A stretch of 64,000 nucleotides of DNA from Phoenix dactylifera (taxonomy: Eukaryota > Streptophyta > Magnoliopsida > Arecales > Arecaceae), in contig NC_052399.1 in assembly GCF_009389715.1 (NCBI RefSeq), forward strand, positions 28,901,146 through 28,965,145. The letters are read 5' to 3'. Of this stretch, positions 11,999 through 58,260 are shown in pieces. Below the pieces are notes generated by a model. It worked only from the letters and a program-made list of their open reading frames with translations. It had not been told where the DNA came from and did not search any database. Numbering within the stretch: position 1 is the stretch's first letter; each line of letters begins with the position of its first letter. The position numbers and the translations under genes are program-made.

Positions 11999-12036
<38 letters not shown>

Positions 12037-15000
12037 TATCTATCTATGTATTTATATATATTGTTTGATTTTTTTGAGAAAAATGCATATGGTTGGGTTA
12101 ACCAATCGATTTAATAGAGCATAGCATGATTGTTGGGATTCATAATGATGGTGGCAGTAAAGATTATCGACTAACAATCTAAAAATAGATGTGATTTATG
12201 AATCATATTTTTGGATTCAATTAAAGTAAGCTAAATTAGGTAGACCTTTTGTAGTTGGTATATTGGATCCAGGATTTAGACATTTTCTACTTTATTAAAC
12301 TAGACATGGATCTGGTTACATGCATATATTTGACTATGCTAGCTTAAAATTAGACTTACAGGAATAGAGCTAGATCTATGCTTGGATCTAGATATAAATC
12401 TATTGGAAGATTCAAGAACTCATGTAAATATGGATCTTGATTGTATTAACTACACTGAATCTCTCTTCGAATTCAAATGGTGTAAGTAGTCTACAAATTT
12501 GACCATGGTTATAAGATCAGTGAGTCAATAACACGGCTACCATTGGCAAAAAAAATTCATATGACATGGTTACTTCCAAAAAAAAAAAAAGTGACCAAAT
12601 TTGACATAATTCAGGTTACATGGTGAGTCAAAAAAAATATATTTGAGTCAACTCTCTTTTTCTGTCAAATGATTATTCTCACATAATTAATTTAGGGCCA
12701 ATCTTTCTTTGACTTAAAACATGATGAGTTATAAATTTCTAAATCAAGAATGCAAGCTTTTCGCTTATGCATATCTTTTTAATTTTTGGATAATATTTTT
12801 TCCTAAAACTCCAGTCACTTTACATTATTAATTGGACATGATAACGACTTGCTTATCTATACATTGTCATAATTTGCATAATTAGATGAATATTATATTT
12901 CTTATTATCTAGAAATTTAAAGTTTATATGTAATAGAGGATGCAAAACCAACCATTTGATCCATTAGATTAAAAAATAATGTAGTGTATTTTCTCATCAA
13001 TTTTCTTATAGGGTATGGCTATGCTTCCAATATACATACAAAATTGTATATTTTCTTGTTTTGTATTGTACAAAAATATAGAAAAATGATTCGATTATAA
13101 AGATTTATATTAACCCAAAAGTATTTTAATTAGTAGGTTAATTGTAGAGAAGTTTTATGTCTTGATTCGATGGCTATTCATTGAAATCAGCATAAGTTAT
13201 TATTTATATGTAACATTTTAAGAGTTAGTTTTTAAAAATTGTTACACATTTTATTATATATCTTACAACTTTTTTTAAAAAAATTTGTATTAATTTGTAA
13301 TATTTATTTTTCTTATTTGATATGCATGACTCACCCGATTCATATAATTATGAGCAAATTAGTCATGTCCCAACATTTCCAACTTAACTCTAATCATTTC
13401 TACCTTTTTAATGAATAAATTAGAAATTTATCATCAAAAGTTAATCAGTTCATTTCTACACAAACATCACACGTAGTCTTCATTCAAAGGATATGCTTAC
13501 ATTAAACTCTCATCGAAATGATTTGCAAATAGTTAGGCATTAGCATAAGCTTTATATACATTTATTAGTTTTGACCCATTTATTTTAAGATAATCTACTT
13601 TTACTCTTTCTGTCCTAGATAGTTATCTACTATATTTAACAATTATAAGTTTTCCATTTTATATTGGCTTTATTTATATGCGTGTTAATCTAGCTAGTTA
13701 TTGTAATGTACTAAAAAAAAGGTTATCAAATAAGTTATCACTATGGACTTAGATATTTAGTTATTTCTTGTATCATGATCCTTATATTACCGTGCTAAAT
13801 AAAATTATATATTCTATAAGTATTGATATTTAATAATTAAATTTTATTATTTGTGTTATATTATTGAATGAAATAGGTATATTTCATATTAGATTTCATC
13901 TATCAAATTATCTGATAAGGATACCTTTGTTTATCTCTTCATAAATATTTGTAAAAAAATATAATTAATACATTGATCTTTCATCTATAGTATCTCTCCT
14001 ATACGTCATAAACTAGTCGGACTTTATTTTTAAAAAATCATTACCTATCTCTCATCCACATCCCAACCTATTGGATCTTTTTTTTAAAAAAATAAATGAA
14101 AATAAAAATATTGATGCTCTTTCTCTAATTTTTATGTTTTGTCTTTCTTATCTTTCAATTTCCAAGCTTTTATTGTTAATTCATTTTTGAAATACATTGC
14201 ATGTTACCAGTTGCTACTAATCTCTAATTAATATTTACACAAAGTTGTTGTTATTCAGTCTAAGTAATGGAATTTCCATGATTATATATGAGAAAATGAT
14301 ATTCAACGATTTTCAACAACCAACATACATTTTTATTAGACGTTTCAAACTAATTATTGATCTCTTGCTGGATTTAGATGCCTATGCAATACATATAGCA
14401 TTCCATAGTATTCAAATGATTAGTCCTTTTAAAAAATGATCTCAAACCTAAAGTAGTAATATATAGGTATCATTTGTATCTGTTACAGTTAATCCTTAAT
14501 AAAAATGTTATCCCATATATACTTCTTGTTATGCATTAATTGTTGATAAGTATTTTTTTATACCTAAAGTTTTGGATATTACATTATTATTAACTAGTGA
14601 ATATCAATTGGCTACTCATAATTGTCTTTCTTCTTCTTTTTTCTCCAAGATAATATAGATACTCTTTACAATCTATCCTTGAAAAATATTTTTTTTATTG
14701 TATATGAATTGTGTTTCTAGATTTATTATACTTTCAATTGGTGATTGTCTCCTCAACGTACAAATCATACCTATATTATAGTCACCTATTATTCCCGCAC
14801 TAAATGTTTTCTTATAAATCATATTTTGCTGATTTAAAATTAAAAAAATAGAATTTTTCTTTCTATTTTTTTTGTATCTATTGGTATCCATAAAATAACA
14901 CCTTTCAAACTATTATTATAAACATATTGATGTCTTGTAATTCAAAAAGGTTTATTATAAGCTTATTTTATTGCATAAACAAGATTCAATCAAATTATTC

Positions 15001-15339
15001 TAACATATGAGTTGGTAATTAAGTTAGTTAAGTTATATATTTACATAATTGATTTTTTTACATAATCATTGTATTATAGTTGTTATCTTAGTATATCAAC
15101 CATTATTTATCACTCTTATTAACTAAAAAAATATTTAATTATTTAATGGTGATAACAAAATTTTTTTGTTAATTTATAAATATTAATTATCAAAATAGTG
15201 TAAATCAATATTTTTTAGGAGTGTAGAGAGGAACTTTCTTTTCTTCCTACAAAACAAAATAATAACTACAAGAAAAGAAAATTATTATATTTTTACATCT
15301 AAGAAATCTTCATTTTCTATTCTTCTATCTATTTTTCGT
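7330..15339. other. Long AT-rich intergenic region
   Basis: About 8 kb without a recognisable gene. Contents noted: a TA/AC microsatellite at about 11990-12035; a locally GC-richer segment at about 10440-10790 without a domain-bearing open frame; and very AT-rich DNA from about 12.5 kb on. Short open frames here look random. Confidence 0.5.
11990..12035. repeat. (TA)n(AC)n compound microsatellite
   Basis: A run of TA dinucleotides leads directly into about twelve AC repeats (12012-12035). Confidence 0.9.
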
Positions 15340-16265
15340 AGAGGTAAACTGCAATCAAAATTTGGGTTGATTAAATTTTTATATATCACTATATAGCAAC
15401 AAATTGCTAAAAATTGGTAACAATTATAATTCAATTCTTACAAAACCTAGCTTCTAACTAAATTGAAAAAATAACACTATTTATATATATTTGTTTTAAA
15501 AATAAATAATATTTTGGATTATATATTTTTTTAAAAAAATTTGTGTCACAATTTTTTTGAATACCCTATACAAATATAAAAATTTTGAAAATGATATTCT
15601 TATTCGTTGAATTGATGTGGATGATTTTTTAACTTACATAACTCATTATGCACAATTTTTTTTGTAAAAAGTATTCAATTCGTTGAAGCATAAAAATCCT
15701 CTCAATTGGAATTGTATTTATAAATATACATCATGTTAAATATAAAGAAACAAAATTTATGTTGCTTATATCCTAAATATTTTTCTTTTTAGATTTTAAG
15801 TATGAACATGATTGAATATTAATTAATTGTAATTGACTATAACTATAGACAATATGCAAGATCACTAGATGAAGAATTCTTATATGACCTACGCATGTAT
15901 CAAAGGTCCAAATTGATTCCATTTATCATAACAAAACTAATCAAACTAAATAATACATTTGGCTACTCTAGTAGTGCAACATAATATTATATGATAATTA
16001 TATAATCCTATTTAAAACAATAGTGATGCTCAAAATTTTATAACACATCTATTTATCTTGTATGATAGAAATGAATAAAAAGATATGCATTATCAATATT
16101 AAACTTACAAAAAAAATTATGAAATTTTATCTTGATTAAATGATCGACAATTATTTATTCTTTTGTTCTCCATTCTATATGCTCCAAATATTGAAATAAT
16201 TGGAGATATTAAAGCCAAATAACAAAAAATATTTTTTATTATGTCCATTCATTCTCTAATCTCTT
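15340..16265. repeat. Zinc-finger locus unit A: upstream copy without a gene
   Basis: This segment aligns by eye, in the same order, with the upstream regions of the two zinc-finger genes. Shared landmarks: a GGTAACAATT / GTAACAATTGC block followed by TTCTTACAAAACC / TTCTAACAAAACT (15409-15450 against about 16361-16400); the TTTATGTTGCTTATATCCTAAATATTTTT block (about 15745-15785) against its match at about 16710-16735; and a CGACAATTATTTATT plus CTCCAAATATTGAAATAATT block (about 16145-16200) matched at about 17024-17080 and partly at 25650-25690. No zinc-finger coding sequence follows; the next unit begins at once. It is an old partial tandem duplicate. Boundaries are approximate. Confidence 0.65.
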
Positions 16266-16274
16266 TTATTTGAA

Positions 16275-19200
16275 AGTAATTATCTTTATCAAGAGATAAA
16301 ATACAAAATAAATCTGGATTTTATCTAAATCTTACATATAATTACATGATAACAAGCTAGTAACAATTGCTAACATCTATTATTTAATTCTAACAAAACT
16401 CTGAATTAAAATTTATAAATATTAATATTATTCTAATTTTGGAAAGAAATAATGCTATTGTATTGTATGATTTTTTAAATATCAATGTAATGAAAATTAT
16501 TCTTTATAAAATTTAAAAATAATAAAAATAATAATTTATTTTATATATTGACTAGATGGTGATCATTTTTTATTCACATAAACTTATCATACATTTTAGT
16601 ATAAGAATATAGCTCAACTAGTGAGTCACTTAAAATCTTAAAATCATCAAAATTAATTCCATACGTACGTACTATTATATATTACATTTAATTAAAGAAG
16701 ATCCAGATTTATATTGCCTATATTCTTAAATATTTTTATACATGTAATTTTAACTATAAAAAGTATCAAATACTAAATAAATTATTAATGGTTATATGCT
16801 ATTAACGTAATACAATTAGTCAAACAAAATTATGCATTTATTTTGGCTCCATGTGATAACAATATAATCCTACAAGATAAGCATACAATTTTATCTAAAA
16901 GTTAGTATTGATATTAAAATTCTATGGCATGTCTGCTAATCAAGAACAATAATAACGAATAAAAGTTATACATTACTGATTAAAGCTATATTGCCATAGA
17001 TTTTTTGCTTTGATATGATAATCGACAACTATTTATTATGTCATTCTATATAGTATATGCTTCAAATATTCAAATAATTTGAAGAAATAAATATTGAGTG
17101 CATCAACTTCTTATGCCAAATTATTAGTTTCTTGTATACATATTATCTAGTTCGATGTCTTATATGAGAGATTAGGAAGAAATTAATAACACATCTATTT
17201 AAGAAGAGTACAAGGGTGAAGAATCAACAACGTAAGGAAAGAAAAGTTGTCAAAGATTAATCCTATAATTTTCCAAGATTTATTTTGTCGCATTGCAAAA
17301 TCTTCTTTTAAAACTTATACATCTTTTTAAGATTGATGTGCATGTAATTAAGAGAAGAGGCCATTCATTTGAAATCTAAGATTTGCGGTTTCCAAATATA
17401 GATCATCACCATCTACAAAAGGGGATTATTCTCACGCATAACAAATCTAACTTCGAGGTCATTGTTCTTCATTCCTCTTCCATTCTCTATCCCTCTCATA
17501 GTAAGTTTTCTATCTTCTTTTATCTATCATTCTATATTATTTTTCTAATAGTTTGTATTTATCTATATCTCTTAATAAATCTGTTTCATTCTTTTTATTT
17601 GCTGCTATTTTTAAATGTTGTTTCATTCTCTGTCACTCTTATATCTCTTTTGAAAATATTCTTTTTTCATAATAATCCCATCAGATTTTCTTTTTTGCTA
17701 TTCCAGTTTTATATTTGTAGTTTTTACAAGATCGTACTATATAGGATTATTTTGAAATATCTTGACATGATTTTTTTTTGCTGTCCTAGTTTAATTTGTT
17801 TTCACCAAAATGGCCAACAAGGAATTGAAAGGCATATCAATAGAACAACTGGAGAAGAAAGAAGAAAAGGGACAGCTTTTCTCATGCCAATTCTGCGATA
17901 AAGCTTTTTCTAGCTCGCATGCTCTTGGCGGCCATCAGAATTGTCACAAAAAAGAAAGAGAGGCTGCCAAAAGAGCCAAACGAAAGGTTGATCTTTTCGG
18001 TATGCAGAGTGGAACATTTTCATATAACCCTCTTCAAAATAATATGCATCTACCATTATATTCACCATCTCACATTATGCCTGCATCTACGTGTCATCAC
18101 CCATACCATATGCCAAATTTCTTCTACAATTCCCATGGAGCGGTGCCGGATCCTGAGTACTCTTTCAAAAAATTTTACCATGGAGAGATGCCAACAGATG
18201 AAGGCCATATGAGGTTTCTGAACTGGCAAAAAAACTATCATCTTCAACATGGCACACCTTCAAGGATGGGAGCTAATGTAATACGAGAAGAAACCATGGC
18301 AGGGCCATCATCCTCCACAAATGTAAACCAAGGCTTTCAACAAAATGAAAATGGGATCAAAGATGACAAGAATGATAAGGAGAGTGAAATTGACCTCACA
18401 CTCCATCTATGATGGCAGAGTTGAAGACTAAAGTTCTAGGTCTTCTTGTTGTTCTTTATTTATTATCTTTTACGCCATTGTAGTGTCTTGTGTTGGTATG
18501 TGGCGCATGATGTCTTTTATCCTAGGAGTCGTTTTACGACTTTTGCTCTTTCTATGTTGTCCGGATTAATTGATTTCAATGCATTTTAAATGATGAAAAT
18601 CGTATTAGGTGTTAAACAAGTTTTTTCCTAACGTTTGGTAGATAACACTAATCTGTGTAAACTATTATAGCTATTGTATATCTGCTATTATTCAGCATGC
18701 TTTTCTTTTCCGTATGTGCATGTACATGCGTCCCCCATGCAATGGCAATTATGTAGTTTTATAAGAAAGTAAATTTCGTCAGGGTTTTTCTGTAAGCAAC
18801 TTATTTCTGAAGAGTTATATATCAATCATCAAGTGCATTGCATGTGTTAAAAACTACTATAGATACGAAGTTATTCGTTGAATAATTATATGGATTTATA
18901 CAGTCCTCTTCATACATTTCACGAACCATAATCTAAAAGAAATGTTATGCACCAAAATTAATACTGTCCAACTCACATTAACATTATGTTTTACTAATAC
19001 TTCATTTCCTATTTTAACGCTTCCCACATATTTATGGATATGCACCTCTGAGATTTCGAATCTTATAGTAATATAGACCTTAGATCTCTCTGTTCCTCTT
19101 CTAAATATTATTCTCCATGTTCAGAGCTCAATAAGATAAACAATATGGAAGATCTTGAATATTTGTATGTAATTTGTTTAAACGAAAAAACTTCCAAAAA

Positions 19201-19560
19201 GTGGTATTAGAAAATCTTGAATGGGATCGATGCATTGTTTGTTTAAAACCTTTCCAAAGTAATTACAAGCACCACTCAACTTTGTACTTTCTTTCTTTCT
19301 ACTAACAAATTGTACGAACATTTTCATTTTGGGCTACTCAAAATGCCATGCAAATGTAGTCTGAGTTTAAACTTACTTACAGTAATCAACATGGATGGAT
19401 ACATTTTGTTTCAGATGAATCTGTACCATGTCAGGCTTTTCAATATCTTATAGGTAGCTACTCCGTACGTAGACAACATAGTCTTCTCGTTAGATACACT
19501 GGGTTGCCTTCCAAAACTTCCACATTCCTCCATGTATTCAGGTTTAGGCTGGCCCAGCCT
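16275..19560. repeat. Zinc-finger locus unit B (tandem duplicate, insertion-free)
   Basis: Includes the upstream region, the gene at 17810-18412 and about 1.1 kb downstream. The same order recurs in unit C at 23930-34981. Downstream landmarks shared with C are CTCACATTAACATTATGTTTT with GGATATGCA (about 18971-19045 against 28206-28275), AACTTTGTACT (about 19280), GGCTTTTCAATATCTTATA (about 19435), GTAGACAACATAGTCTTCTC (about 19468) and GGGTTGCCTTC. This copy lacks the Copia, MITE and plastid insertions found in C, and so approximates the pre-insertion state. Confidence 0.7.
17810..18412 (+). CDS. Single C2H2 zinc-finger protein with C-terminal EAR motif (copy 1)
   Basis: Intronless coding region for 200 aa. 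It has one plant-type C2H2 finger at residues 26-46: Cys26, Cys29, His42 and His46 in C-x2-C-x12-H-x3-H spacing. A basic [13 protein letters not shown] stretch follows (possible nuclear signal), and the protein ends in DLTLHL, an LxLxL EAR repression motif, so a nuclear transcriptional repressor of the ZFP1/3/4/7-KNUCKLES group is likely (inference). The family signature QALGGH reads HALGGH here (His37 for Gln), unlike copy 2. A 5' UTR intron is likely at about 17501-17789 (GTAAGT donor, TCCTAG acceptor), mirrored in copy 2. The ATG at 17810 aligns with copy 2. Conserved middle blocks include LPLYSPSH and RFLNWQKNY. The frame is intact; expression is unknown. Confidence 0.88.
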
Positions 19561-21284
19561 TCTTGCACGATAGTGTTTAGAAGGCAAAACGACCATCAGC
19601 ATCGATATTCTGTGAAGTATAAGCTATATATGAGTGGGCACAGCTCCGCAAATGATCCATGCCCAGAAGATGACATGTTGCTCCGTATATTTCCCACTTT
19701 TATGTTTTCGTTGCATGAGTTCTGGTCGATCACAATGCGATCATTTTAGTGCATCAAAACAACCGATGGGGAGGGGACTTGCATTAATCTGTGCTATAAT
19801 TGTTCGAACTTCTCGATCTTGATTTTTTGTTTTTGGGTGGCATGAGTCCTTACTAATTGTTTGAGTCCTGTGTGGCACGCAAGAGTAGTTCAGCTTATTG
19901 GATTCGATCACTTGATTGGCTATACATGCAAGTGCAACACCTTAATGCTGCTCAGTTCTAAATCTGAAGAACTTCACCATCAGTTTGAGTAGGAAGTTAG
20001 CTGGTCGTTTCTCTTTCATGCCTCCAGGAGTCCAGTGGATAATGACCTTGTTTAGCAAGAGATAGCAAGATGTGACTTAAACGGATACTTGGTTGCAATC
20101 ACGTAAACTAAGCTTGCCTGCTTACGTGCTTAAAGTATTTTAAGCAAGATGTACGTATTTTGCACTATAAAGTATTGTACTTCTCGATAGCTGCTACCAA
20201 GAGACAGATGGCTATCAACAGCGAGTGTTGTGTATTCATATAGAGCTATCCAATTTGGTGGCCATCCGTCTTCGTGATCGGATGATATGGTAGCTATTAA
20301 GTGCTATATATTACTCTGCGGTGCAAATTATACACAGCAAAGAATCCAAATAGGATACAACTAGCTAGTCAGCAAAGGTCTTGGCTTTGGTGTTATGAAG
20401 AATATCTGTCGTCACATTTTAGTACATCTGAGTTGCTAATAAATAAGATTATATACTATTAGAAGGAATGGAACTCCATTTCCATGACCATTGGGTTGTT
20501 CTGAGAATTGAGGATAAAGTTTGGAACAGTTCCAAGTGAATGAAGAAATGAGGGATTTTACATATGTTAGCGTGCAGAGAATAAAGAAAGACGCACCATT
20601 GGCAACAGTTCGAAGTCCAAACCAACTAGCAACAAGATAAAAGTATGGGTGATTTTTTTTTAAATTGAATTATTGATCAAAACGTTTTTGTATATTTCTT
20701 TTTACACATCATTTAGTAACTATTCATAAGTCAGTCCCGTTTATATTATCGTTTCAATTGGTTTCAGCTTTATGTTATTGTTAGAAGTGCTAGAAAGATG
20801 AAACTAGATGACAAACAGTTTCTCATGGATTATCTATTTACGAGCTGAGGAGTTCTGATACAAGAAAGAGTTGACATATATACCTGTTGGAACCCAACTC
20901 AACCTAAAAGATTTCCTTCTTGCATGCGTGCTCCTCCAGAAGCACACATAATAATGACAGGTAAAGATCGATTAGTACCATACTCGATCAAACAGGTGAT
21001 TTTCTCGCCTACTACGGATCCCATAATAAGTTATTAGGATTTTAGTCCAATCATCTACACTGACCCTTCTATCTCGGTCTATGCAGGGACCGAACCTCTC
21101 ATGTGAACCTCAACAATCTCCAACCGAAGATACGATTATTCAGTATGAGACTAAACATAATCTACATGCAATACTCCACTCCAAGACCCATCCATTTGGC
21201 ACACCATGACCTCCATGATTGCACTTCAGCAAACCATGCACATGCTACCATTCTTTTACAATAGCCAATTATATATTCTAGTGC
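19561..21284. other. Intergenic, nothing recognised
   Basis: No gene recognised. Near 20885-20915 a stretch beginning TGTTGGAACCCAACTCAACC resembles the end of the LTR-type remnant at 21770, so a small piece of the same family may lie here. Confidence 0.4.
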
Positions 21285-21640
21285 TTTTCTCTTTTTTTTG
21301 GTAATATAAGAAAAAAGGTATATCTGCTGCACTCGTCCAGATGAACTCTCCGAAATGCCGCGCAACAAAGGAGGCAATCTAGTCTGCAACTCTGTTCGCT
21401 TTTCGATACACATGTACTGTCTAGAAGGAGCCCAATTTCCTGACTAGTTTGCGGGTCTCACGAAGCAATGGGTGGCTATCCTCATACCGATCCACTCGTC
21501 ATATCCAATCGATTACCGTAGAGGAGTCCCCCTCGAGGCATCCACTGTCTGCACCAAGTACACTCCTCGCATAAGAGATACTCTTTCAGGCTGCATGAAG
21601 CTCCACCCCATGGCTTAGGAATTGACCACATGCTACTACT
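21285..21640 (-). mobile_element. LINE 3' fragment (RNase H domain)
   Basis: Minus-strand translation gives the C-terminal RNase H-like domain of plant L1-type LINEs: SYARSVLGADSGCLEGDSS followed by TVIDWI, then HPLLRETRKLVRKLG and, after a shift, TVHVYRKANRVAD, a stop, then IASFVARHFGEFIWTS. LEGDS and HVYR-AN--AD are the diagnostic stretches. The frame contains several stops and shifts, and the reverse transcriptase is missing, so this is a dead 5'-truncated copy. The A-rich end on the minus strand near 21290 fits a LINE tail. Confidence 0.75.
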
Positions 21641-21769
21641 TTTTTTACAAGAGGCAATTATTCTAGTGCCTTGACAGCTCAGGAATTGGCCAAAGATTTT
21701 TAACCCTCAATTCAGGTACCACTGGTTGGAGGAGACAGGAATCCTAATATCAGAAGCACTTGACATGCA

Positions 21770-22560
21770 TGTTGCAACCCAACTCAACTTAAAAGCTTAA
21801 ATCATTAAATTTTGATCTCGAATATCTATATCATCCCTTCTCCCTTACACCATTTACTCTCTGTGGGATAATTCTGGACACGATCCTCAACACTATACTC
21901 TTTAATGATTTTTGTTTTTAATTTGTATATGAAGTTAAATTCTTGCTGAAGATCAAGTTTGAGGATTAGTCCCAAACGGAATAAATATGTTTTGATATAC
22001 ATGATTGGACTTCATCATCAAGGAATTTGGCGTTCGACTCCATCTCCCCTAACAAGTGGAATCAGAGCTAATGGCTAAACATTGTGGACAACTCTCTAGT
22101 ATTTAGCAAGGGGGGATTCTGATGAAGCAACATATTGGGTTGGAACACCGGTCCGAGCACCGTTTCTAGAAGAGCAAACTCTTGTAATAGTGAAACATGG
22201 CTCTTGGAGAGCTAAATGCTCCTTAGGTTGGAGTTGCAATGGTGAAACATGACTCTTAAAAGAGTAGGGCTGCTGTACCGGGGCAATGATCGATATATGG
22301 GGCGCTTGAAGAGTAACGGGCATGGTGCACTTGGAAGAGTTGCAAGGTTGGAATTTGATTATGAAGTAATGGACCAAACTTGAAGGAGTTGAATATAGGC
22401 TTAGACGTGAAGGAGGAACTTGTTGAAGATCACCTGTGAGGATCAGTTCCAAACATAATAAAATAATGTGATAAACAAGAATTGATATATATATATATAT
22501 GATCGGGCTCAAAATCTAATTGCTAAGTTTTTGGGTCATGTTGGGCTCCAACATGTATAT
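21770..22560. mobile_element. Degraded LTR-retrotransposon-type remnant
   Basis: The left part (21770-22055) begins TGTTG and ends CTAACA, followed two bases later by TGGAATCAGAGC (22058-22069), one base from the usual initiator-Met tRNA primer site, so it looks like a short LTR plus primer site. The right part (about 22430-22560) ends, on the minus strand, with TGTTGGAGCCCAACATGACC, resembling the left end in inverted orientation over about 60 bp. A block like CTTGNTGAAGATCA...GAGGAT occurs in both halves. No coding region was recognised. It is an old, rearranged, non-coding fossil; a miniature or chimeric element is possible. Confidence 0.5.
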
Positions 22561-23929
<1,369 letters not shown>

Positions 23930-24379
23930 AACTTGATAGAGATTATCTTTATCTAGAGAAAAACATAGTTAAATATGGAACCCATCTAGATCCCATGAAA
24001 AACTACAAGACAACAAATTAAATAATTATTCCCAACTATTGTTTAGTTCCAACAAAAATTTATCTTAGGATTGAATTAGATAAACGATAACCATTATTTC
24101 CATTTTAACTAGAACCAATGATTTCGGACGATCGTTATTTTTTAACGAGCAATATTTTTTTTATTATGGAAACTATCTTTTTAATATCTATGCAAACTAA
24201 GAGAATATATAAATTTTTAGCATTTTAAGTATGCGTAAAAGTATTTGTACCAAAGAATAATCCTAGAATCTTGTCCATTTTTTTAGATTTGGAAAAGTGT
24301 TAATTTTCAAGAATGCGAATCTGATTTTCAAGAATTCCGAACTAGAAGTTGATGACTATCCCCTTTTTCAGTGAGAAAT

Positions 24380-25003
<624 letters not shown>

Positions 25004-26467
25004 TGCTTGATCCTCTTTGCTCAACTCATAGAATATAGAAGAAGGAAACTAACTATGGCATTTTTTATGTGTTAATAGATAGCATCAATCTTTTAATTTA
25101 TATAACTCATGGTACAAGTTGGCACAAGAATACATACATACATATACATATATATATGAATCTCCTAAATTGTTGAAATCATCACAATTGATATCATATT
25201 TGTTAATATGTATTAGATTAAATAAAAAATGATCAAGATCGCATGTTTACCACGTCCTCAAACATTGTTTTGCCTTTAATTTCAACTGTCAAAAAGATGG
25301 AGTATTATATGAATTGTTGGTGAAAATATAACAATATGAAAAGGCTTAAACCTAGTAGATCATTGGATCAAGAGATTGACCATAAAATTTCACCATGTAT
25401 TAGAAAAAAACACATAAAATTCATTTAACATGAAATAATTAGCCAAATTAAAGAATGCACTTTTTAGCTCAATGAAAAAATAATATAATATTGTATAATA
25501 AGATCGGCCATCATGTCTAAAAATTTATCGTTTGTACTAGAAATTTTATAACTTGAAATTTTATAATACATGAATAACAAGTATACATTACCAAGGCTAA
25601 ACCTATTAATGTTATGCTCCCATAAATGTTTTACTTTATTAATAAACAACCATTTCTTCTATAATTTTCCATGTGTACATTCCAAATATTGAAATGACTG
25701 GAAAAGCAATTTCAGGCAAGTACTAGTTTTCATGAAGCAAATTTTTATAATGATCATCTTGTAAGCATTTCTACTTCTAATAGTAAGTTATTAATTTTTT
25801 ATAGATATATTTTTTTGGTTCAATGTATTTCCGAGTTCGGTGTCTCATATAAGAGATCAGAAAGAAGTTAATAGCATATTTGCTCAAGAAGAGTAAACGG
25901 GGGAGGAACCAAGAGCTTAAGGGAAGAAAAGTTGTCATAAACCCATAATTTCCAAAGATATACACCTTCAATTGCAAAATCTTTTCAAAATCAGTTGTCT
26001 TTTCAAGATTGATGTGCATGTAACAAAAGAGGTCACTTATTAGAAATTAAGAATTTATTATTTCCAAAGAAAGATCACCCCTATCTATAAAACAAGATCA
26101 TTCCTGTGCATAACAACATCTAACTTACGGCCATTATTCTTTACTCTTGTTCTGATCTCCCTCCTCTAGCGGTAAGTTTTCTATCTTCCTTCTCCTCTCT
26201 TTTTAGTGTTTCATTTTTTAAAATTTTAATATACCTTATTCTTCTTAAGAAATTTGTATCATGATCTTCTCTTTGCTAATATTTTTTCCATACTTCTTTA
26301 TTATCCCCTTGCTCTTTTGCTCTTCTAGTTATCTCAATGTTACTAGATCCTCTCTTCTAATATTCAAGTTCTTGTTTGCACTTTTACAAGGTTAAACCAC
26401 ATAACATAATTTTGGAAGAACATGACACTTTTTTCTGCTCGTGATTTAGGTTTAATTGTTTAGGAGA

Positions 26468-27103
26468 ATGGCCAATCAAGAAATGAAAGGCAAATCAACA
26501 GAATTAGTAGAAATGAAAGGAGCAAGAAGAAAACTTTTCATGTGCCAATACTGTGACAAAGCTTTCACAAGCTCACAAGCTCTTGGTGGCCATCAGAATG
26601 GCCATAGAAACGAGCGAGAGATTGCTAAAAAGACCAAACAGGAGATTGAAATTCATGGTATACAAAATCCATTTGTTTCAATGCCGACAACTTTGTTACA
26701 CAATACTCGTCAAGGAAACTTGTGCCTTCCATTATACTCGCCATATCACACTACGCCTGCACCTACAAATTATCATCCTTTTCATATCGCAAAATACCTC
26801 TACAGTACTCATGGAGCAACAAGTCATGGACAAAGGTTCTCTTCGGAGTATTCTTTTAATGGTTCTTCTAATGATAGAGCAATGCTAATAAATGAAGAGC
26901 ATTTGAAGTTTCTGAACTGGAAAAGAAACTATCGCCTTCAGCTTAATGCATGTTCAGAGATAAGGCCTAATACAATGCAAGCAAGCAAGGCAGAACCATC
27001 ATCCTCGACAAACATAAACCAAAACCTTCAACAAGATGGCAATAAGGTCAAAGATGGCAGAGATAACAAGGAAAGAAAGATTGACCTCACACTCCATCTT
27101 TAA
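26468..27103 (+). CDS. Single C2H2 zinc-finger protein with C-terminal EAR motif (copy 2)
   Basis: Intronless coding region for 211 aa, paralogue of 17810-18412. The finger occupies residues 26-46 with Cys26, Cys29, His42, His46 and the canonical QALGGH signature (Gln37). A basic stretch follows, then conserved blocks LPLYSPYHTTPAP and KFLNWKRNY, then DLTLHL at the C-terminus, an EAR-type repression motif. A nuclear repressor role is inferred from these motifs. The ATG at 26468 was chosen because it aligns exactly with copy 1 (MANQEMKG against MANKELKG); the short in-frame extension before it lacks an ATG. A 5' UTR intron is likely at about 26172-26449 (GTAAGT donor, TTTAG acceptor), conserved with copy 1. 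The frame is intact, with short insertions relative to copy 1 in the middle (GQRFSSEYSFNGSSN region). Confidence 0.9.
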   Translation: MANQEMKGKSTELVEMKGARRKLFMCQYCDKAFTSSQALGGHQNGHRNEREIAKKTKQEIEIHGIQNPFVSMPTTLLHNTRQGNLCLPLYSPYHTTPAPTNYHPFHIAKYLYSTHGATSHGQRFSSEYSFNGSSNDRAMLINEEHLKFLNWKRNYRLQLNACSEIRPNTMQASKAEPSSSTNINQNLQQDGNKVKDGRDNKERKIDLTLHL

Positions 27104-28478
27104 TGGTGGAAATGGAAACTCGAGTCCTTGTTTTGGTTGTTGTTCATTATTTTTTTCTGAGGAAATTTGTTGTTCGATTTATTGTCTTGTCATTTGTTGT
27201 TGGAATTATATATATTTTTTAGTGTCTTAACATGTTGATCATGATTTTCTCTCAAAAAAAGAAATGTTGGTTATCGTGGTAAGTAGGCCATATTTTGTGT
27301 TGTGGAGCACTGCTTGCTTGTTTCATCTAGATTAATCGATTTCCATGTATTGTTGACAATCAAAATGGTATAACTATAAATCATGTTTTCCCCATCTTTT
27401 CTTTTGATGGGCAATAATAAGCTTTGCGGAAATTATTATGGCTATCTCACATCTTCTATCATTTAGCACTATTTTATTTTATATATATTTGTGCACATGC
27501 TAACTTATATTAGTCTAGCTCATGCAATGCACATGCCAAACACTAATAAAAAATACTAAGCACTAAATTATTGTGCTAATCAAAATTTCCATAAGGTGCT
27601 ATTCAATTATAACAGAACCCCACCAAAATTGTTGTTGAATGTTATAATAGTTATGACAATTACTATTTGCCACAATGTATACTATTTCAAATTCTTTTGT
27701 ATTAAGGTAGTCATTGTGATAACAGTTGTTGTAATGGCATTATAATAGACAATAACGAACAAAAATGGAAACATAATAGTATTATTCTGTCAATGATTAT
27801 TCTCCTCATAAAAAAAATATTTTTCAGGCCACAATCTCTTTTGGATGGGAATTGATGCAAAAATTTGAGTTATATGCTTAGATAAAGATAGAAATGAAAA
27901 TAATGGCCATATATTACAACGATAAAAAAAATTATTTTTCAGGCCACACAATCTCTTCTGCAAAGGAATTGGTGCAAAAATTTCAATTTTGAAAAGAAAT
28001 AATACCATGCTTAGAGAAAGATAGAAATGAAAACAATGGCTATGTATTAATGACAATTATAATGCTTGGTAACTTGTAATAATGTCAATAATCTTTTCCC
28101 TTGTTATTATATATGTAATATAGCAGGGGCAACCTAAAACCATTATAATGGCTGTTATGAATTAATGATCATTCTTTTGAACTTGTACAAATGATCAAAG
28201 TGCAACCCACATTAACATTATGTTTTGGTACGTATCTTCAATTCTTAGTTTAAATCTTCGGCATATTTAAGGATATGCATCAATAGGATTTCCAATATTC
28301 AATTCCTCTTCCGTATGATTTCCCATGTTTGGAGCTCAGTATGATTAAGAAGCAATTGATCTTGGATGTTTGTCTGCGATTTGTTTAAATAATCCAGAAA
28401 TAGTGTTAGAAGATCTCGAACTATTTATGTGAGATTTATTTAAGAGAAAACCTTTGCAAAAGTGATGCTAGTACTTTG
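27104..28478. other. Downstream part of unit C
   Basis: No gene. It holds the presumed 3' UTR of copy 2 and then sequence shared with unit B. Inside are two similar direct segments near 27795-27880 and 27915-28000, each with TTTTTCAGGCCACA followed by AATCTCTTNTG and ATTGNTGCAAAAATTT, an approximately 120-bp local duplication. Confidence 0.5.
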
Positions 28479-29111
28479 TGTTATGTGGTTTGGGCCCTTT
28501 CTTTTGGTCCAAGCCTATGGAACCCCTTAAGTCATTTTAAGCCCAACTTTAAAGCCTGGGTGCTGTTTTTTCTGGGTATAAAAACAGAAACACGAAAATC
28601 AGAGCTCTTTGTGAGGGAAGACGGCTAGGGTTTGGGGAGAGCTTGTGTGTCCTACTCCTATGTCCATTGATACTCATTGAAGCTTGTGTTTTCAAGGGTG
28701 TAGTTTCTTCCAACAAGTTGTTTAGAAGATTTTATGTTGGAGTTGGCTTGTTCATGCTCATGAGGTAACCCTTGTCTTTCTCCTCTTTTTTGGATTGTGT
28801 TGGCTCAAGTGATATATTTTGATACTTGAGTAGAAATCACTGTAATTTGTTTATTATAGTGAAAGTTTGATCGGAGCATGACCCGTGGATGTAGGCTATA
28901 TGCCGAACCACATTAAATCTTGTGTCTCTTGTATATGCCTTCTATGTGTTTGATGTTTTGCCACTTAGAATCAGTCCATACATTTTGCTTGCCTAGCATT
29001 GGTAGTTGTGGTGACTAGCTTCCATAGACTTTGTATTCATAAACTTACACATAGTTGGCCATATTTGGTTGAGTTTGTGATCTCACAAAGTGAAGGAGTA
29101 TTTTTCCTACA
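28479..29111 (+). repeat. 5' LTR of the Copia element
   Basis: 633 bp, TG...CA ends. It carries a likely TATA box (TATAAAA, 28577-28583), so transcription would start in the following GA-rich stretch. Confidence 0.95.
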
Positions 29112-29163
29112 AGTGGTATCAGAGCTAAGTTGTGTGGCTTGTGGTTGACTTGTGTAGTTTGAG

Positions 29164-32100
29164 ATGGAAGGTTCTTCTAGTACCATGATTAAGCTTACAA
29201 ACACAAATTGGTTGAATTGGAAACCAAAAATGGAAGACATTCTTTATTGCAAAGATTTGTATGAGCCCATGGAGGATGAAACGGCTAGGCCTAAAGACTT
29301 GGATAATAAAGCTTGGCAAAAGTTGCATAGAAATGCTATTGGGACAATTAGGCAATGGTTGGATGATAGTGTTTTTCATCATGTGTCTAATGAAACCGAT
29401 ACTCATGAGTTATGGAAGAAGCTAGAGGCTAGATATGAGCAAAAGACCGCTGGGAACAAAGCCTTTTTAATCAGAAAGCTTGTGAATATGAAGTTTAAAG
29501 AGGGTTGCCCCGTTGCTGATCACTTGAATGAATTTCAAAGTGTTGTGAATCAATTGAGTACAATGAAAATGGTGCTTGAAGATGAGTTGCAAGCTTTGTT
29601 GCTTTTGAGTTCTTTTCCAGATAGTTGGGAGACCTTGGTTGTCACAATTAGTAACTCTGCTCTGGGTGGTGTATTGTCAATGAGTCAAGTGACTAGTAGC
29701 TTGTTCAATGAAGAAACAAGAAGAAAGTCAGCGGGTACAGATAATGCACAAGCTCTTGTCATGGAGAACAGGGGTAGAAGCAAGAGTAGAGAACACAAAG
29801 CTCACGGTAAATTTAAGAGAAGATCTCAGTCTAGAGGAAAGTTTGGTGAAAAAGGCAAATGTTATCATTGTGGTAAAGTGGGGCATATGAAAAGAAATTA
29901 CTATGCATGGAAAGCACAACAAAAAGAGAATAATACACAAAAGAAAGAAGATGACAAGAATACAACGGCTACTTGCTCAAGTAAAAAAGTAGTAGTTCTT
30001 TCTTATGAAGAGGATGAATATATGCATGTTGGTGAAGAAGTTGAGTGGGTTGTTGATACTGGAGCTTCCTACCATTCTACTCCTTATAAGGAGTTCTTTA
30101 CTTCATACAAGGAAGGAGACTTTGGAAATGTGAAGATGGGCAATGAGAATTATTCGAAGATTGTGGGAATTGGTGATGTTTGCATTCAAACCAATGCCGG
30201 GTGTACTTTGACCTTGAAGGATGTGCGCAATGTTTCCGATTTGCGCCTTAATCTTATTTTCGTGAATGTTTTGGATAGGCAAGGTTATGTGAATTGCTTT
30301 GGTGATGGAAGATGGAAGCTTACTAAAGGGTCACTTGTGGTAGCTAAAGCAAAGCGTTGTTGCACTCTTTACAAGATACATATGAAGGTTTGTAGAGATG
30401 ACTTGTATGTCACCGAAGATGAGTCGTCTCCAAGCTTGTGGCACAAGAGGTTGGCTCATATGAGTGAGAAGGGATTGCAAATTTTAGCAAAGATGTCTCT
30501 CATTCCCTTTGCCAAAGGTAAAACTCTAAACCCTTGTGATCATTGTCTTTTTGGTAAGCAACATAGAGTTTCTTTTGCTAGATCTTCTTCAAAGAAATCT
30601 AATCCTCTTGAGTTGGTTTACTCTGATGTTTGTGGACCCATTGAGGTAGAGTCTTTGGGTGGCAATAGGTATTTTGTCACATTTATTGATGATGCATCAA
30701 GGAAGGTGTGGGTGTATTTGTTGAAGACAAAAGATCAAGTGCTTCAATTATTTCAACAGTTTCATGTCATGGTCGAAAGAGAGATAGAAAAATCATTGAA
30801 GTGTCTCCGTAGTGATAACGGAGGAGAGTACACATCAAAAGAGTTCAGAAGTTACTGCTCTGGGCATGGTATTAGGCATGAAAAAACTATTCCAGGTACA
30901 CCGCAACATAATGAGGTGGCAGAGAGGATGAACCGCACCATTGTAGAGAGTCAGATGCATGCCAAAGATGGCTAAGTTACGTAAGGCATTTTGGGGTAAA
31001 GCCGTTCTCACTGCTTGTTACTTAATAAATAGATCCCCCTCAGTTCCTTTGGGCTTTGATATTCTAGAGAGAATATGGAGTGGAAAGGATGTCTCCTATT
31101 CGCATTTGAAGGTATTTGGGTGCAAAGCCTTTGCACATGTACCTAGGGAGCAAAGGTTGAAGCTTGATGATAAGACACTTCCTTGTATCTTTGTTGGTTA
31201 TGGCAATGAAGAGTTTGGATATAGATTATGGGATCCAGTGAAGAGGAAAATTATCAGAAGTAGAGATGTGGTCTTTCATGAAGGTCAAACCTTTGAAGAT
31301 GCTGAAATGGCCGAGAAATCTAAGGATGTGGTAAAAGATGCTATCGATTTTGTACTTATTCCGACACCTTTGCATCATACTGCAGATGGGGGAGAGGTAC
31401 AATATAAATCTAGCAGAGATGAGGTACCAGAAACTAGTGGCAATGATATGTCAAAAATGGGTATGGGTAATGATGAGATGCTTGAAGATGTGGTTAGTGA
31501 GCAGGGGGAGCAGTCTACTCAACAAGAAAGTGCAGAACCTCAGGTCAGAAGATCTGCTAGAGAGCATACACCATCATCAAGGTATCCTGCTTCAGAGTAC
31601 ATTATGTTTACTAGTGAGGGGGAGCCGCAGAGTTTTCAAGAAGCACAGTCTCATGAAGATAAGGTTAGTTGGATAAGAGCTATGCAAGAAGAGATGAACT
31701 CTTTGCTGAAAAATGACACTTATCAACTTGTGGAGCTTTCTAGAGGCAGAAAAGCATTGAAGAACAAATGGGTGTTCAAGTTGAAAAAAGATGGCAATGG
31801 AAAGCTAGTGAAACACAAAGCTCGGTTGGTTGTTAAAGGCTTTGGTCAGAAGAGAGGCATTGACTTTGATGAGATTTTTTCTTCGGTTGTGAAAATAAGT
31901 TCTATCAGAGTTGCCTTGGGCTTGACAGCTAGTTTGGACCTTGAGCTAGAGCAATTAGATGTTAAAACTGCATTTCTTCATGGTGATTTAAAGAAAGAGA
32001 TCTACATGGCTCAACCTGAGGGGTTTGAGGTGAAAGGTAAAGAGCACTTGGTTTGCAAGTTGAAGAAAAGTCTTTATGGGCTTAAGCAAGCACCAAGACA

Positions 32101-33181
32101 GTGGTACAAGAAGTTCGACTCATTCATGGTCGATCATAGGTACAAAAGAACAGATGTAGATCATTGTGTTTACTTCAAGAAGTTTAGTGGTGGGAACTTT
32201 ATTATTCTCTTGCTCTATGTAGATGATATGCTTATCTTGGGTCAGGATGCAAAAATGATTGTGAAGTTAAAAGAAGCTTTATTTAAGTCTTTTGATATGA
32301 AAGATTTAGGTGCAGCACAACAAATTTTGGGCATGCAAATTTATCGTGATAGGAAGGCAAAGAAATTGTGGTTGTCACAAGAGAAATATGTTGAACGAGT
32401 GCTTCAAAAATTCAACATGGCAAGTGCTAAGTCAGTTGGCACTCCTCTTGCTAGTCACTTTAAACTTTCTAAATGCTCATGTCCATCTACTGAAGATGAA
32501 AGGAAATCCATGGAGGCCATTCCATATTCATCAGCTGTGGGGAGTCTTATGTATGCTATGGTGTGCACACGACCAGATATTGCCCAAGCAGTTGGTATGG
32601 TTAGCAGGTTTCTTTCAAATCCGGGCAGAGATCATTGGGAAGGTGTGAAATGGATTTTCAGGTACTTAAGGGGTACTTCTGAGTTGTGCTTGAGGTTTGG
32701 TGGCTACAAACCAGTGTTAAAGGGTTTTACAGATTCTGATATGGCAGGAGATTTAGACCACAGGAAGTCCACTTTAGGATATCTGTTCACATTTGCTAGG
32801 GGAGCTGTTTTATGGCAGTCAAAGCTTCAAAAATGTGTTGCATTGTCCACTACAGAGGCAGAGTATATTGCCGCTACAGAAGCCACCAAGGAAATGCTAT
32901 GGATGAAGAGATTTCTTCTTGAGCTTGGGATATCGCAAGACAAGTTTGTGGTGTTTTGTGATAGTCAGAGTGCTATGGATTTGAGTAAAAATGCTACGTA
33001 TCACTCTCGTACGAAGCATATAGATGTGAGGTATCATTGGTTACGTGATGTAGTAGAGAAGCAACAAGTGCGGCTTGAGAAGATACACACAGATAAGAAT
33101 CTTTCTGACATGATGACCAAAGTGCTTCCTAAAGAAAAGTTTGAGCTTTGCGCCAAGTTGGCGGTTTTAGGCTCCCGGTGA
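29164..33181 (+). mobile_element. Copia gag-pol coding region (fossil)
   Basis: Gag carries the UBN2-type domain and a CYHCGKVGHMKRNC-like knuckle; the protease has VDTGAS; integrase shows the HH-CC type head (WHKRLAHMS, CDHCLFGK) and a D-D-E core; the reverse transcriptase contains KTAFLHGDL, SLYGLKQAPRQW and LYVDDMLI; RNase H carries DSDMAGD, STTEAEYIA and TKHIDVRYHWLRD. These are textbook Ty1/Copia signatures and closest in memory to tobacco TNT1 (Tork lineage). About one break interrupts the reading frame; otherwise well preserved, in keeping with a young insertion. It is a transposon fossil, not a host gene. Confidence 0.93.
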
Positions 33182-33227
33182 GGAGTCATTAGTTGGTTCT
33201 CCTCCCTCATGGGCTTGGAGGGGAGAT

Positions 33228-33858
33228 TGTTATGTGGTTTGGGCCCTTTCTTTTGGTCCAAGCCCATGGAACCTCTTAAATCATTTTGAGCCCAACTTTA
33301 AAGCCTGGGTGCTGTTTTTTCTGGGTATAAAAACAGAAGCACGAAAATCAGAGCTCTTTGTGAGGGAAGATGGCTAGGGTTTGGGGAGAGCTTGTGTGTC
33401 CTACTTTTATGTCCATTGATACTCATTGAAGCTTGTGTTTTCAAGGGTGTAGTTTCTTCCAACAAGTTGTTTGGAAGATTTTATGTTGGAGTTGGCTTGT
33501 TCATGCTCATGAGGTAACCCTTGTCTTTCTTCTCTTTTTTTGATTATGTTGGCTCAAGTGATATATGTTGATACTTGAGTAGAAATCACTGTAATTTGTT
33601 TATTATTGTGGAAGTTTGATCGGAGCATGACTCGTGGATGTAGGCTATATGCCGAACCACATTAAATCTTGTCTCTTATGGATGCCTTCTATGTGTTTGA
33701 TGTTTTACTACTTAGAATCAGTCCATATATTTTGCTTGCCTAGCATTGGTATTTGTGGTGACTAGTTTCCATAGACTTTGTATTCATAAACTTACACATA
33801 GTTGGCCATATTTGGTTGAGTTTGTGATCTCACAAAGTGAAGGAGTATTTTTTCTACA
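33228..33858 (+). repeat. 3' LTR of the Copia element
   Basis: 631 bp copy of the 5' LTR with about two dozen differences and small length changes. It is followed directly by the CTTTG target duplication. Confidence 0.95.
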
Positions 33859-34085
33859 CTTTGTACTCATCTTTTAACATCCTGTCTTTCCTTATGGGCA
33901 ACAAACTGAAGAAATATTTCCATTTGAATCAACTAAATGCAATGGATACAATCTGAACTAGACCTTACCTATTTACCATGTATAACTACACATGAACATA
34001 TGCATTTTATTGGCAATGAACAAGCACGAAAATGCATCAAGTATCTACTATATTTGGCTTTTCAATGCCTCATAATAACTATTAA

Positions 34086-34793
34086 GGCTCCGTTTGGTAG
34101 AGTTATTGACACTAGAGATTTCAAAAGTAGAGCTTTTTGAAGTAGAGTTTTTATGAAAAATTATTTGTTGTTTGGTACCTATATTTCTAAAGTACAGTAA
34201 GATTTTAATATGTTTGGTAAACAAACTAAGAAATTACTTTTGGTATGACAAAATGACCATAAAGGATATTGCATAGTATTATATAATAGAGCATAATAAA
34301 ATATAATATGTATTATTACATAAATATATAATATAGTATAATATTACTGTAATAGAATATAATATTATTATAATATAGTAATATAATACTGTATACTATA
34401 GCATAATAATATAATATAATTTGATATTATATAACATAATATATCAATGTGTTATGATATAATGTAGTATAATATTACATTTATAGTATAATACAATAAT
34501 ATATATATATATATGATATTATAATTATTATCATTATATATTAATATTATTGCTGTAATTATAATAGTTTATCATTGGTATTTTGGTCCAAAAAGAAAAA
34601 AATATAAATCAAAACAGCTTTCCGATGCATGCTAAAAGTGTTTTTCCGAAGAAGCTCCAAAATGGAGCTTCTCCCAAGGCAAAGCTAAAATAACTTTTCA
34701 ATTTTTTTATCAAATACCTCTATTTCATCCAAAATATTTTTGGAGAATCGGAAAGTGTTTTGTGGTCCACCAAAAGCTCTGTCAAATGGAGCC
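34086..34793. mobile_element. Tourist-like non-autonomous PIF/Harbinger element
   Basis: 708 bp with terminal inverted repeats of about 20 bp: GGCTCCGTTTGGTAGAGTT at the left and, reverse-complemented from the right, GGCTCCATTTGACAGAGCT. It is flanked by TAA on both sides (34083-34085 and 34794-34796), the 3-bp duplication of this superfamily. The interior is extremely AT-rich, largely degenerate TAATATAATA repeats, with no coding. It interrupts sequence that is continuous in unit B near 19450. Confidence 0.82.
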
Positions 34794-34981
34794 TAATTTA
34801 TACATTATGTAGACAACACTTTCTTCTCTTTAATCTACCCATGGGTTGCCTTCAAATATATCTAAATCGTTCCATGCATGCAAGATGGCGATGAGATGGC
34901 TTTGGCTGGGCCACCCTCATGCATGAGCCAAAATCAAGCCGAAGCCCAAAACCATATTTTGACTGGGTCCATATATATAGA

Positions 34982-35877
34982 TAGGGCTGTTAAAGAGCCG
35001 AGCCAAGCCGAGCCTGAGTCTCCGCGAGCTCAGCTCGACTCGTTTCATGAAATTCTAGGTTCGGGCTTGAGCTCGGGCTCGGTACCGAGCCCTATATTGG
35101 GCTCGAGCTTGGGCTCGCTTAGCACAGCCCGGCTCAGAATTGAGCTCGTAAAGCTCGTTTGCTCGAGCCTGAGCCCGAGCACGAGCCCGCCCCATCCCCA
35201 TCCCCATCTCCATTCCCGGTTTGTCGTCGCCTCGTCGGAGAGAAGAACGAAGGAAAGAAAGAAATGAAGAAAGAAAGAAAGAAAAGAAAAAGAAGAGAAG
35301 AAAGAAGGAAAGAAAGAAAGAAAGAAAAAAAGGGAGGCGCCGCCGGCCGGCCTCCACCCCTCCCCTAATTTGCCGGTGGAGAAGGGCTTCTCCTCCCCTC
35401 CTCTATCGCCCGGTGGAGGAGTCGGCAAAGAGCCAAAGAGAGGAAAAGAAAGGGGGAGAAAGGGAGAACCGGAGAAGAAAGGAGAAGAAAATAAAAAGAA
35501 AGAGGAGGAAGAGGGAATGGGTTAACGGGTTGGGTTCGGGTTAACGGGTTAAGTCCGAACCCGAACCAATCTAATCCAATGTAAAGAAATTAAATGAATT
35601 TGGGTTAGCTCGGGTTGGGTCTGATCTAAATCCAACTGGGTTCAATCAGATTGGGATTTTAAATTGATTAAGCCAAATAAAATTTAATTGGGTAGAATTC
35701 AAGTTTAATTAGGACCCAATTAAATTGTCAATTGGACTGAGCCCTACTCGAGCTCGGGCTCGAATTTAAACGGGCCTCATTTTGGGCTCGGGCTCGGGGT
35801 CGTTTGATTAACGAGCCGAGCTTGAGTCGGGCTTTTATCGAGCCGAGCCCGAGCAGCTAGGCCCGTTGACGGCCCTA
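34982..35877. mobile_element. Non-autonomous hAT-like element with GAGCTCGGGCTCG-type subterminal repeats
   Basis: 896 bp. Ends are TAGGGCTGTTAA at the left and, reverse-complemented from the right, TAGGGCCGTCAAC; these resemble the TAGGGNTGTNAA ends of plant hAT elements. It is flanked by an 8-bp target duplication with one mismatch, TATATAGA (34974-34981) and TATATAGG (35878-35885), as expected of hAT. Both subterminal regions are packed with GAGCC/CGAGC/GGGCTCGG motifs, probable transposase-binding arrays. The middle is a long purine-rich (GAAA/GGAA) tract at about 35231-35515. It encodes no transposase; the open frames in it are compositional. Confidence 0.85.
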
Positions 35878-36889: not shown

Positions 36890-39260
36890 GCGAGCACCGG
36901 AGAGCTTTGGCTTCCACAGGATTTGAATAGATTGGGTGTTGGCGTGCCTTCGAGGGCCGAGCTTTTCTATCCTAGTTAACGACACGCCGTCATCCTTCTT
37001 TTGGTCCACCATGAAGCTTCGACAAGGATGTCCATTATCTTTGTACTTGTTTATTATTTATTTCGATATTCTATCTCGTGCATTGTGGGCCGCATGTGCG
37101 AATCGGGCGCTAGAGGCTTACATTCCAACCCTAGGGGCCCGACCTATTTCTCATTTATTTTTTGTTAATGATTGTTTTCTTTTAGCCAAGGCGAGGGCAA
37201 CGAATGCACAAATCCTCAAGGGAGTGCTGGCGGATTACTGCACAGCATCGGGGCAGAGAGTGAACATCCAGAAGTCAACCATCTCCTTCAGTCCAAGCAC
37301 GAAGCGCAAGGTCAAATGGAAGATCCGGAGGATACTGGAGATGCCAGAGCAGGAGGAGACCTGGAGTTACCTAGATGTACCCATCACAGGCAGGAGGTTG
37401 TCGGTGGCCGGGTGCTCCGGTCAGGTGCAGTGGGTCCAGAGCAGGCTGAAGGTTTGGAGGGCGTCGTTTCTCTCTATGATAGGCAGAATGACGCTGGTTA
37501 AATCAGCATTAGGCTCCATGCCCGTCTATGTCATGGCCAACACGGTGGTGCCAAAGACGGTACTGATGAAGATCAAGCGACTACTTCGGAGCTTCTTGTA
37601 GGGGTCGCATAGAGGAGGCCATGGGGTGCACTTGGTGGCTTGGGAGAGTGTCTGTCTGCCTTTTAGTAAGGGCGATCTTGGGGTGCTGCCTCTCCAAGAG
37701 AGGCGTGAGGCGCTTATTGCTCGACATGTGGTATGATTTATGCTGGAGACATAAGGGTTCTGGAGTCAGGTTATGGTAGCTAGATATGGCTGAGTGCGCT
37801 CTGAGGGGGTGGCTTGGAGTGGGCGCTGATGTTCTTTCATGTGGCGTGAGATTGGGCGGTATCTGCCAATTTCTTCGGCAAACACCAGATGGCTAATAGA
37901 TGATGGGCAGAGTATTGATATGGCAAGTGATCCATGGGTGAATGCCCTTCCCTTGAGGCGTTGGCCGACTATGATTAACGTCAAGGCAGCGAAGGGACCA
38001 TGGGTATGTGACCTCCTCGGCCCTAGAGGGGCGGAGTGGGACGATGCCAGACCGTGTCAGTTGTTTGGGGTGTATCTTGCAGAGCGGGTCTGGTCTCTCT
38101 CGGTCCTGGAGTGTGTGGGATCAGATATCCGAGTCTAGAGCTCTTTGCGCAGGACCAACATCAAGGTAGGGGATCTCTCCCGAGTCCTCCGGCGGGAGCA
38201 CGAGCCGAGGTCAGAGTGTGCTTGGATCTGGCAATTCGGATTTCACCCAAGGGTTGCACTATTTTTATGGAAGGTGGTTTGAGAACACCTTCCGACAAAA
38301 TCGGTACTCAGTAGACGTGGCTTGAGAATTTTCCCAGAGTGTGGGATGTGCAGTGTCGACGAGATAATGGACCATGCGCTATTCCAGTGCGCATAGGCGA
38401 GGGGGACTTGGCGGTTTATGGGGACTCTATAGGATGCTTGGAGTCAGAGGGATCAGCTCTTAAAGGCCATTCATCGGTGGTCGAGCAGCCCACGAACGCG
38501 CTGGAAGGCTGTTAGAACGACTTCCACAGCATACCAGATTTGACTGGCAAGAAACACTCGAACCTTTAGCGAGCACAGCATGTTTCTAAGGTTCGTGGTG
38601 GAGCGCGCCCAGGCGCAGGCGACGGAGATCAGTCGTGCTACCTTTTTAGACGGGCCTTTAACAGCTTGAGATATCTAGGGTTTCCATTCTGCTCATGTAG
38701 CACCACATATGGTATTTTTCACCTGTGAGCCCCACTCCCAAGCTTCCTTAAGGTCAACTTTGATGGGTCTATTTTGGATGGAGGCACGAGGAAAGGTGTG
38801 AGTTTTGTCATCAGGGACCCGAACTCCAGAGTGGTGGCAGCGGGCGGCTGTCAGTTATTTGATATTTTGGTCTCCGGTGTGAAGCTAAGGGCTGTCAGGC
38901 GGGCTTTCGACATGCGCAGCAAGTGCCAGAGGCTAGCTCAATCATCTTGGAAGGTGACTCAGCCACGGTGATCAGTTAGATCCAGGGGGTTCGAAGGGTA
39001 TTAATTTGGATCGCCTCTTATTACGAGATATCTGGGTTATGGTAAAGGATGGAGGAGTCTTATAGGCCAAGCATGTATTTAGAGAGGCTAACGGGGCTGG
39101 AGATTGGATGGATGCCTATGTGGCCAGCCATTTTGGAAGTACCATGTGGGCCGAGGAGGATGAGTTGCCTCGTGCACTCCACGATCTTTTGTTTTCTAAC
39201 TTTATTGGGTGTATTCGTAGCCGTAATGTAAAAAATACCTGTTTTAGCCACAAAAAAGAA
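36890..39260 (+). mobile_element. L1-type LINE, 5'-truncated and degenerate
   Basis: The second half of a plant LINE ORF2 can be read in order: the reverse transcriptase from CLRGPSFSILVND, LRQGCPLSLYLF and SHLFFVNDCFLLAKA (about 36936-37200); the thumb and connection (LRSFL, then HLVAWESVCLPFSKGDLG at about 37600-37700); WLIDDGQSIDMASDPWVNAL (about 37890); zf-RVT with FPECGMCSVDEIMDHALFQC (about 38330-38390); RNase H from KVNFDGSILDGG (about 38753); and a C-terminal REANGAGDWMDAYVASHFG (about 39080). The catalytic FADD box reads FVND, losing one essential Asp, and several stops and shifts separate the blocks. The 5' half (endonuclease) is missing. The 3' end is A-rich near 39250. Confidence 0.88.
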
Positions 39261-57954: not shown

Positions 57955-58260
57955 GATTTTTTGCATGTATACCCTCTAAAATATACAAAATTATATGAAT
58001 ACTCTCGTAAAATTGCTATTCGCATGTATACCCTCATAAATGCTTATTTTGCATGTATATTCTTTATTTTTTTTTTTATGTGTACTCATACCATCTAATG
58101 TTGTTAAAAAATAAATGATTTACATTTGAAATGATTGAAATATTCTTGCAGGTAGGCACACAAAAAGAAAACTTTATAAGGATACACATATAAATAACAA
58201 CTTTGCAATGGTATTCACGCAATTACACATATTTAGGAGGGCATACACTAAAAAAAATTA
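57955..58260. mobile_element. Palindromic MITE, copy 1
   Basis: Long imperfect terminal inverted repeats: left TTTTTTGCATGTATACCCTC with ATACAAAATTATATGAATAC; right, reverse-complemented, TTTTTTTAGTGTATGCCCTC with ATGTGTAATTGCGTGAATACC. The centre is AT-rich with GTTAAAAAATAAATG and ATGATTGAAATAT. No coding. Termini run into A/T tracts, so target duplication and superfamily are unclear. Confidence 0.7.

Follow-up and report, generated by a model that had tools for sequence, protein, structure and literature searches.

The window analysed here, a 64,000-nucleotide stretch of Phoenix dactylifera DNA (contig NC_052399.1, positions 28,901,146 to 28,965,145), contains two colinear paralogous units, B and C, each with an intact gene for a single-finger C2H2 zinc-finger protein. 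The best explanation of the whole, and in our judgement a very probable one, is that both units descend from an old duplication of a ~3.3-kb unit and that C later received insertions. The features on which this reading relies are the following.

16231..19570, + strand: unit B (5' flank, gene and 3' flank), the paralogous unit without large insertions
23899..34926, + strand: unit C with its insertions
17810..18412, + strand: B gene, 200-residue single C2H2 finger protein with HALGGH and C-terminal DLTLHL
26468..27103, + strand: C gene, 211-residue single C2H2 finger protein with canonical QALGGH and C-terminal DLTLHL
17141..17500, + strand: proximal promoter and leader of B, conserved with C to about the same degree as the coding sequence
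17501..17789, + strand: predicted 5' untranslated region (UTR) intron of B, 289 bp, GTAAG...CCTAG, found by eye
26172..26449, + strand: predicted 5' UTR intron of C, 278 bp, GTAAG...TTTAG, found by eye

B and C gave significant alignments to the left and to the right of each insert in C, and the longest stretch present in B only was 47 bp. Identity in the alignable parts was only about 60–77%, with a Kimura two-parameter distance (K2P) of 0.27–0.41 for alignable non-coding sequence. In the alignment from 17141, the first 400 bp had 39–47 identical columns per block of 60, against 28–47 in the coding part. The presumed TATA box, located by eye, reads TATAAA in C; B has TACAAA there. Both genes show, at matching positions, a splice donor GTAAG and a pyrimidine-rich acceptor ending in AG, so that a 5' UTR intron is likely in each. 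The initial annotation had called this intron conserved; the splice-type signals are indeed in the same place, while the intron itself remains a prediction (K2P 0.367 between B and C over most of its length).

Both reading frames are unbroken, and the proteins are identical at 98 of 212 positions in an end-to-end alignment. Over 199 codons, nonsynonymous (Ka) and synonymous (Ks) divergence were 0.313 and 0.779, giving a Ka/Ks of 0.40 (bootstrap 0.26–0.62), a two-sequence value that does not tell the B lineage from the C lineage and from which we infer that at least one of the two is under purifying selection. The finger, C-x2-C-x12-H-x3-H, is readable in both proteins and matches Pfam at residues 24–49 in B and 24–47 in C; against PF13912 (zf-C2H2_6, cutoff 25) C scored above the threshold with 25.8 bits and B below it with 20.9. 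The finger of C carries QALGGH, and B has HALGGH at the same place. Both proteins terminate in IDLTLHL, which fits LxLxL and which we take to be an EAR-like motif (ethylene-responsive element binding factor-associated amphiphilic repression). A search of the PDB with the C protein returned the SUPERMAN finger as best match (1njq, E 4e-5). Like plant single-finger Q-type C2H2 EAR repressors of the SUPERMAN/ZFP type, the two proteins combine one finger near the N-terminus with a C-terminal LxLxL, and C shares their QALGGH, whereas B differs by its HALGGH. C-terminal EAR motifs are described for plant C2H2 repressors in a review (PMC7044346), and a grapevine study reports groups whose members have a single QALGGH and a single EAR motif, as well as tandem-duplicated Q-type genes (PMC10607507). 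Judged by their sequences, both proteins probably bind DNA through the finger and repress through the C-terminal LxLxL, making them putative repressors. B probably binds more weakly than C, because HALGGH replaces QALGGH; the same review states that changing the Q of QALGGH strongly lowers DNA binding (PMC7044346). A literature search for HALGGH together with QALGGH found no paper.

Three inserts, all more than 1.3 kb away from the coding sequence, distinguish C from B.

24110..25060, + strand: stretch with organelle-like DNA, present in C only (coordinates of the initial annotation)
24772..24999, + strand: remnant of the 3' end of rpoB (RpoB domain 7), decayed and interrupted by one in-frame stop, which by eye may span 24751–25011
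28479..33858, + strand: Copia retrotransposon with long terminal repeats (LTRs) at 28479–29111 and 33228–33858 and target-site duplication CTTTG
34086..34793, no strand assigned: PIF/Harbinger (Tourist)-like miniature inverted-repeat transposable element (MITE), 708 bp, target-site duplication TAA

The Copia element resembles Ty1/Copia in its LTRs (TG...CA), 5-bp target duplication, gag, and integrase preceding reverse transcriptase, and differs in that its frame is broken after the integrase core and before the SH3-like domain. Its two LTRs differ at 25 of 631 positions (K2P 0.041). The MITE is flanked by TAA on both sides and has inverted ends GGCTCCGTTTG/GGCTCCATTTG, with no frame of at least 90 amino acids in its interior. 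These traits are those of Tourist-like MITEs, from which it differs by its 708-bp length with a long AT-repeat core; a 3-bp target duplication is described for the PIF/Harbinger superfamily (PMC2213677). For the organelle-like stretch, PF04560 matched at 24790–24882 (E 5e-11, 43.3 bits) and, below the cutoff of 32.1, at 24883–25038 (E 5e-4, 20.8 bits), and blastn matched bacterial rpoB at 74–80% within query positions 663–765. An insertion of plastid rpoB DNA had originally been proposed for this place. The RpoB matches span only ~230 of the ~950 bp, with ~720 bp unassigned, and the left edge is not fixed, so that a plastid origin of the stretch is no more than possible.

A paralogue that lacks an element delimits its insertion, the principle of the empty site. 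B serves in this way for C, as in other applications of related or paralogous empty sites, but at only about 60–77% identity it yields approximate borders, placed to ~6–20 bp at best. The right edge of the organelle-like stretch was located within ~33 bp, and its left edge lies anywhere from ~24057 to 24232. Two base-exact equivalences that had been proposed could not be upheld. The site in B at 19280 corresponding to CTTTG was off by ~8 bases, and the string CTTTGTACT found there is probably a coincidence, because an alignment forced into its register scores 49 instead of 65, a loss of 16 units in one scoring scheme. At the MITE site, the B strings said to be adjacent have 16 bases between them.

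The order of events is nevertheless legible. That duplication preceded the Copia insertion, as had been proposed, is supported by the target duplication in C, homologous element-free DNA in B and the low LTR divergence; that it preceded the MITE is supported by a target duplication in C and homologous B DNA without the element. For the organelle-like piece the same order is supported by its absence from B and from a third copy of the 5' flank (unit A, below), and is weakened by the left border. Divergence between the LTRs was 6.6–10 times lower than that of B/C non-coding sequence; with an LTR K2P of 0.041 against 0.27–0.41, and a Ks of 0.78, the duplication would, given comparable clocks, be older than the Copia insertion by a factor of several to nearly twenty. 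Since none of the inserts is nested in another, the order among them cannot be read. Duplication, element insertion and organelle-like insertion can be ordered from one compact stretch of DNA. All the components belong to known kinds, and the record as such is ordinary.

Several results weigh against this reading. Borders were scored under three alignment scorings: the left border of the organelle-like insert failed in all three, that of the MITE was not recovered in two, and that of Copia was 58 bp off in one. One unmasked B/C alignment alone did not give back the insertion borders. The non-coding divergence between B and C comes from alignable stretches only, which understates the age of the duplication, and the comparison at the locus is confined to the window. 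Taken as a whole, the initial annotation was right in outline and in the order of events, with several details off; its observation is confirmed in part, and its interpretation is supported in part.

The locus had also been called triplicated, which overstates what is there, namely two genes and a gene-less copy of the 5' flank.

15340..16269, + strand: unit A, gene-less copy of the unit's distal 5' flank, ~930 bp, matching B at 16292–17165

Unit A directly adjoins unit B, its left edge is uncertain by ~80 bp, and the analysis revealed no remains of a third gene. In a first three-way alignment, A and B agreed at 496 of 808 columns, A and C at 448 and B and C at 518; in a second, the counts were 554, 521 and 590 of 878. 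Singletons numbered 85 in B (the shortest branch), 133 in C and 155 in A over the 808 columns, and 92, 125 and 161 over the 878, in a comparison of three sequences without outgroup that cannot be rooted. By these counts A and B are no more alike than B and C, as one would expect of an A dating from around the time of the B/C split; A could then be what remains of a full third unit after deletion of its gene, not a local duplication of 5' flank. Considering, however, that A, having no gene, may just be evolving faster, that no third gene left a trace and that the comparison is unrooted, we regard this origin as plausible but somewhat short of probable. Base composition suggests a different objection, that the similarity of the units is an artefact of A+T-rich sequence: unit A and the 5' flank of B have 20–21% G+C (window, 36%), and the 12–17.5 kb stretch gave many spurious self-matches at low stringency. 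We consider the chance of this negligible. The A+T-rich tract covers 12000–17300, and its G+C values refer only to these two parts of it.

In the reading we prefer, an ancestral ~3.3-kb unit, in which a gene for a single-finger C2H2/EAR repressor, with an intron in its 5' UTR, lay between a 5' and a 3' flank, would have duplicated long ago into B and C. The third distal 5' flank, the gene-less A beside B, would stem from local tandem duplication or from loss of a third gene. Purifying selection would have preserved at least one gene, and probably both, along with the proximal promoter, and C would later have gained the organelle-like fragment upstream and the Copia element and MITE downstream.

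The flank of C was also described as turning into an insertion sink. A count of three in C to none in B gives p = 0.25 under a fair coin, which does not bear this out (four against none, 0.125; five against none, 0.0625). That C holds the three insertions, a tandem duplication and additional DNA besides, with a longest B-only stretch of 47 bp, could suggest that C is decaying and that its flanks filled up since its gene was no longer needed. These coin probabilities, the QALGGH, TATAAA and unbroken frame that C retains, and its higher score on the finger profile make this improbable. The departures in the finger (HALGGH) and the presumed TATA box (TACAAA) lie in the insert-free B, not in C. 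Together with the lower Pfam score and the review's statement on Q mutations (PMC7044346), they raise the converse possibility, that B is losing function through reduced DNA binding and transcription. Yet B has the shortest 5' flank branch, its frame is unbroken and its EAR-like end is conserved, and a Ka/Ks from two sequences cannot tell the lineages apart; we view a loss of function in B as doubtful, if less so than decay of C. An inverted division of roles, with C, which has all the insertions in its flanks, as the working repressor, B, which shares the EAR-like end, as a weak-binding modulator or competitor and A as a second distal control region for B, would fit the sequences but is unlikely. 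Insertions in the flanks tell little about which gene copy still functions.

Further extra DNA was found in and beside C.

27808..28049, + strand: tandemly duplicated segment of C's 3' flank, period 115–133 bp, 76.6%, absent from B
34982..35877, no strand assigned: hAT-like non-autonomous element with ends TAGGGCTGTTAA...TTGACGGCCCTA and target-site duplication TATATAGA/TATATAGG

The 3' flank of C at 27156–28199 exceeds the corresponding flank of B by ~540 bp, in part through this tandem duplication. The hAT-like element, absent from the initial annotation, begins 55 bp past the end of detectable B/C homology; its 12-bp inverted ends agree at 10 of 12 positions and its 8-bp target duplication at 7 of 8, and it is rich in GAGCCGAGCC-like runs.

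Elsewhere, the window contains an auxin-responsive SAUR gene (PF02519, 68.5 bits) and exons of a GDSL lipase (22.1 and 20.9 bits, both just below the cutoff of 23.6). A degraded reverse transcriptase fragment of long interspersed nuclear element (LINE) type lies at 36927–37598 (PF00078, 27.5 bits, just below the cutoff of 29.6). From these features and the Copia element we take the window to be nuclear DNA of a plant. A long imperfect inverted repeat at 57947–59012 (arms 57947–58281 and 58706–59012, 70%) is possibly a foldback element. Finally, an imperfect palindrome of ~305 bp (949–1253, 69%), with a related piece at 62720–62787, carries CCCCGTTTGGATGATTGG near its left end, resembling some MITE ends.
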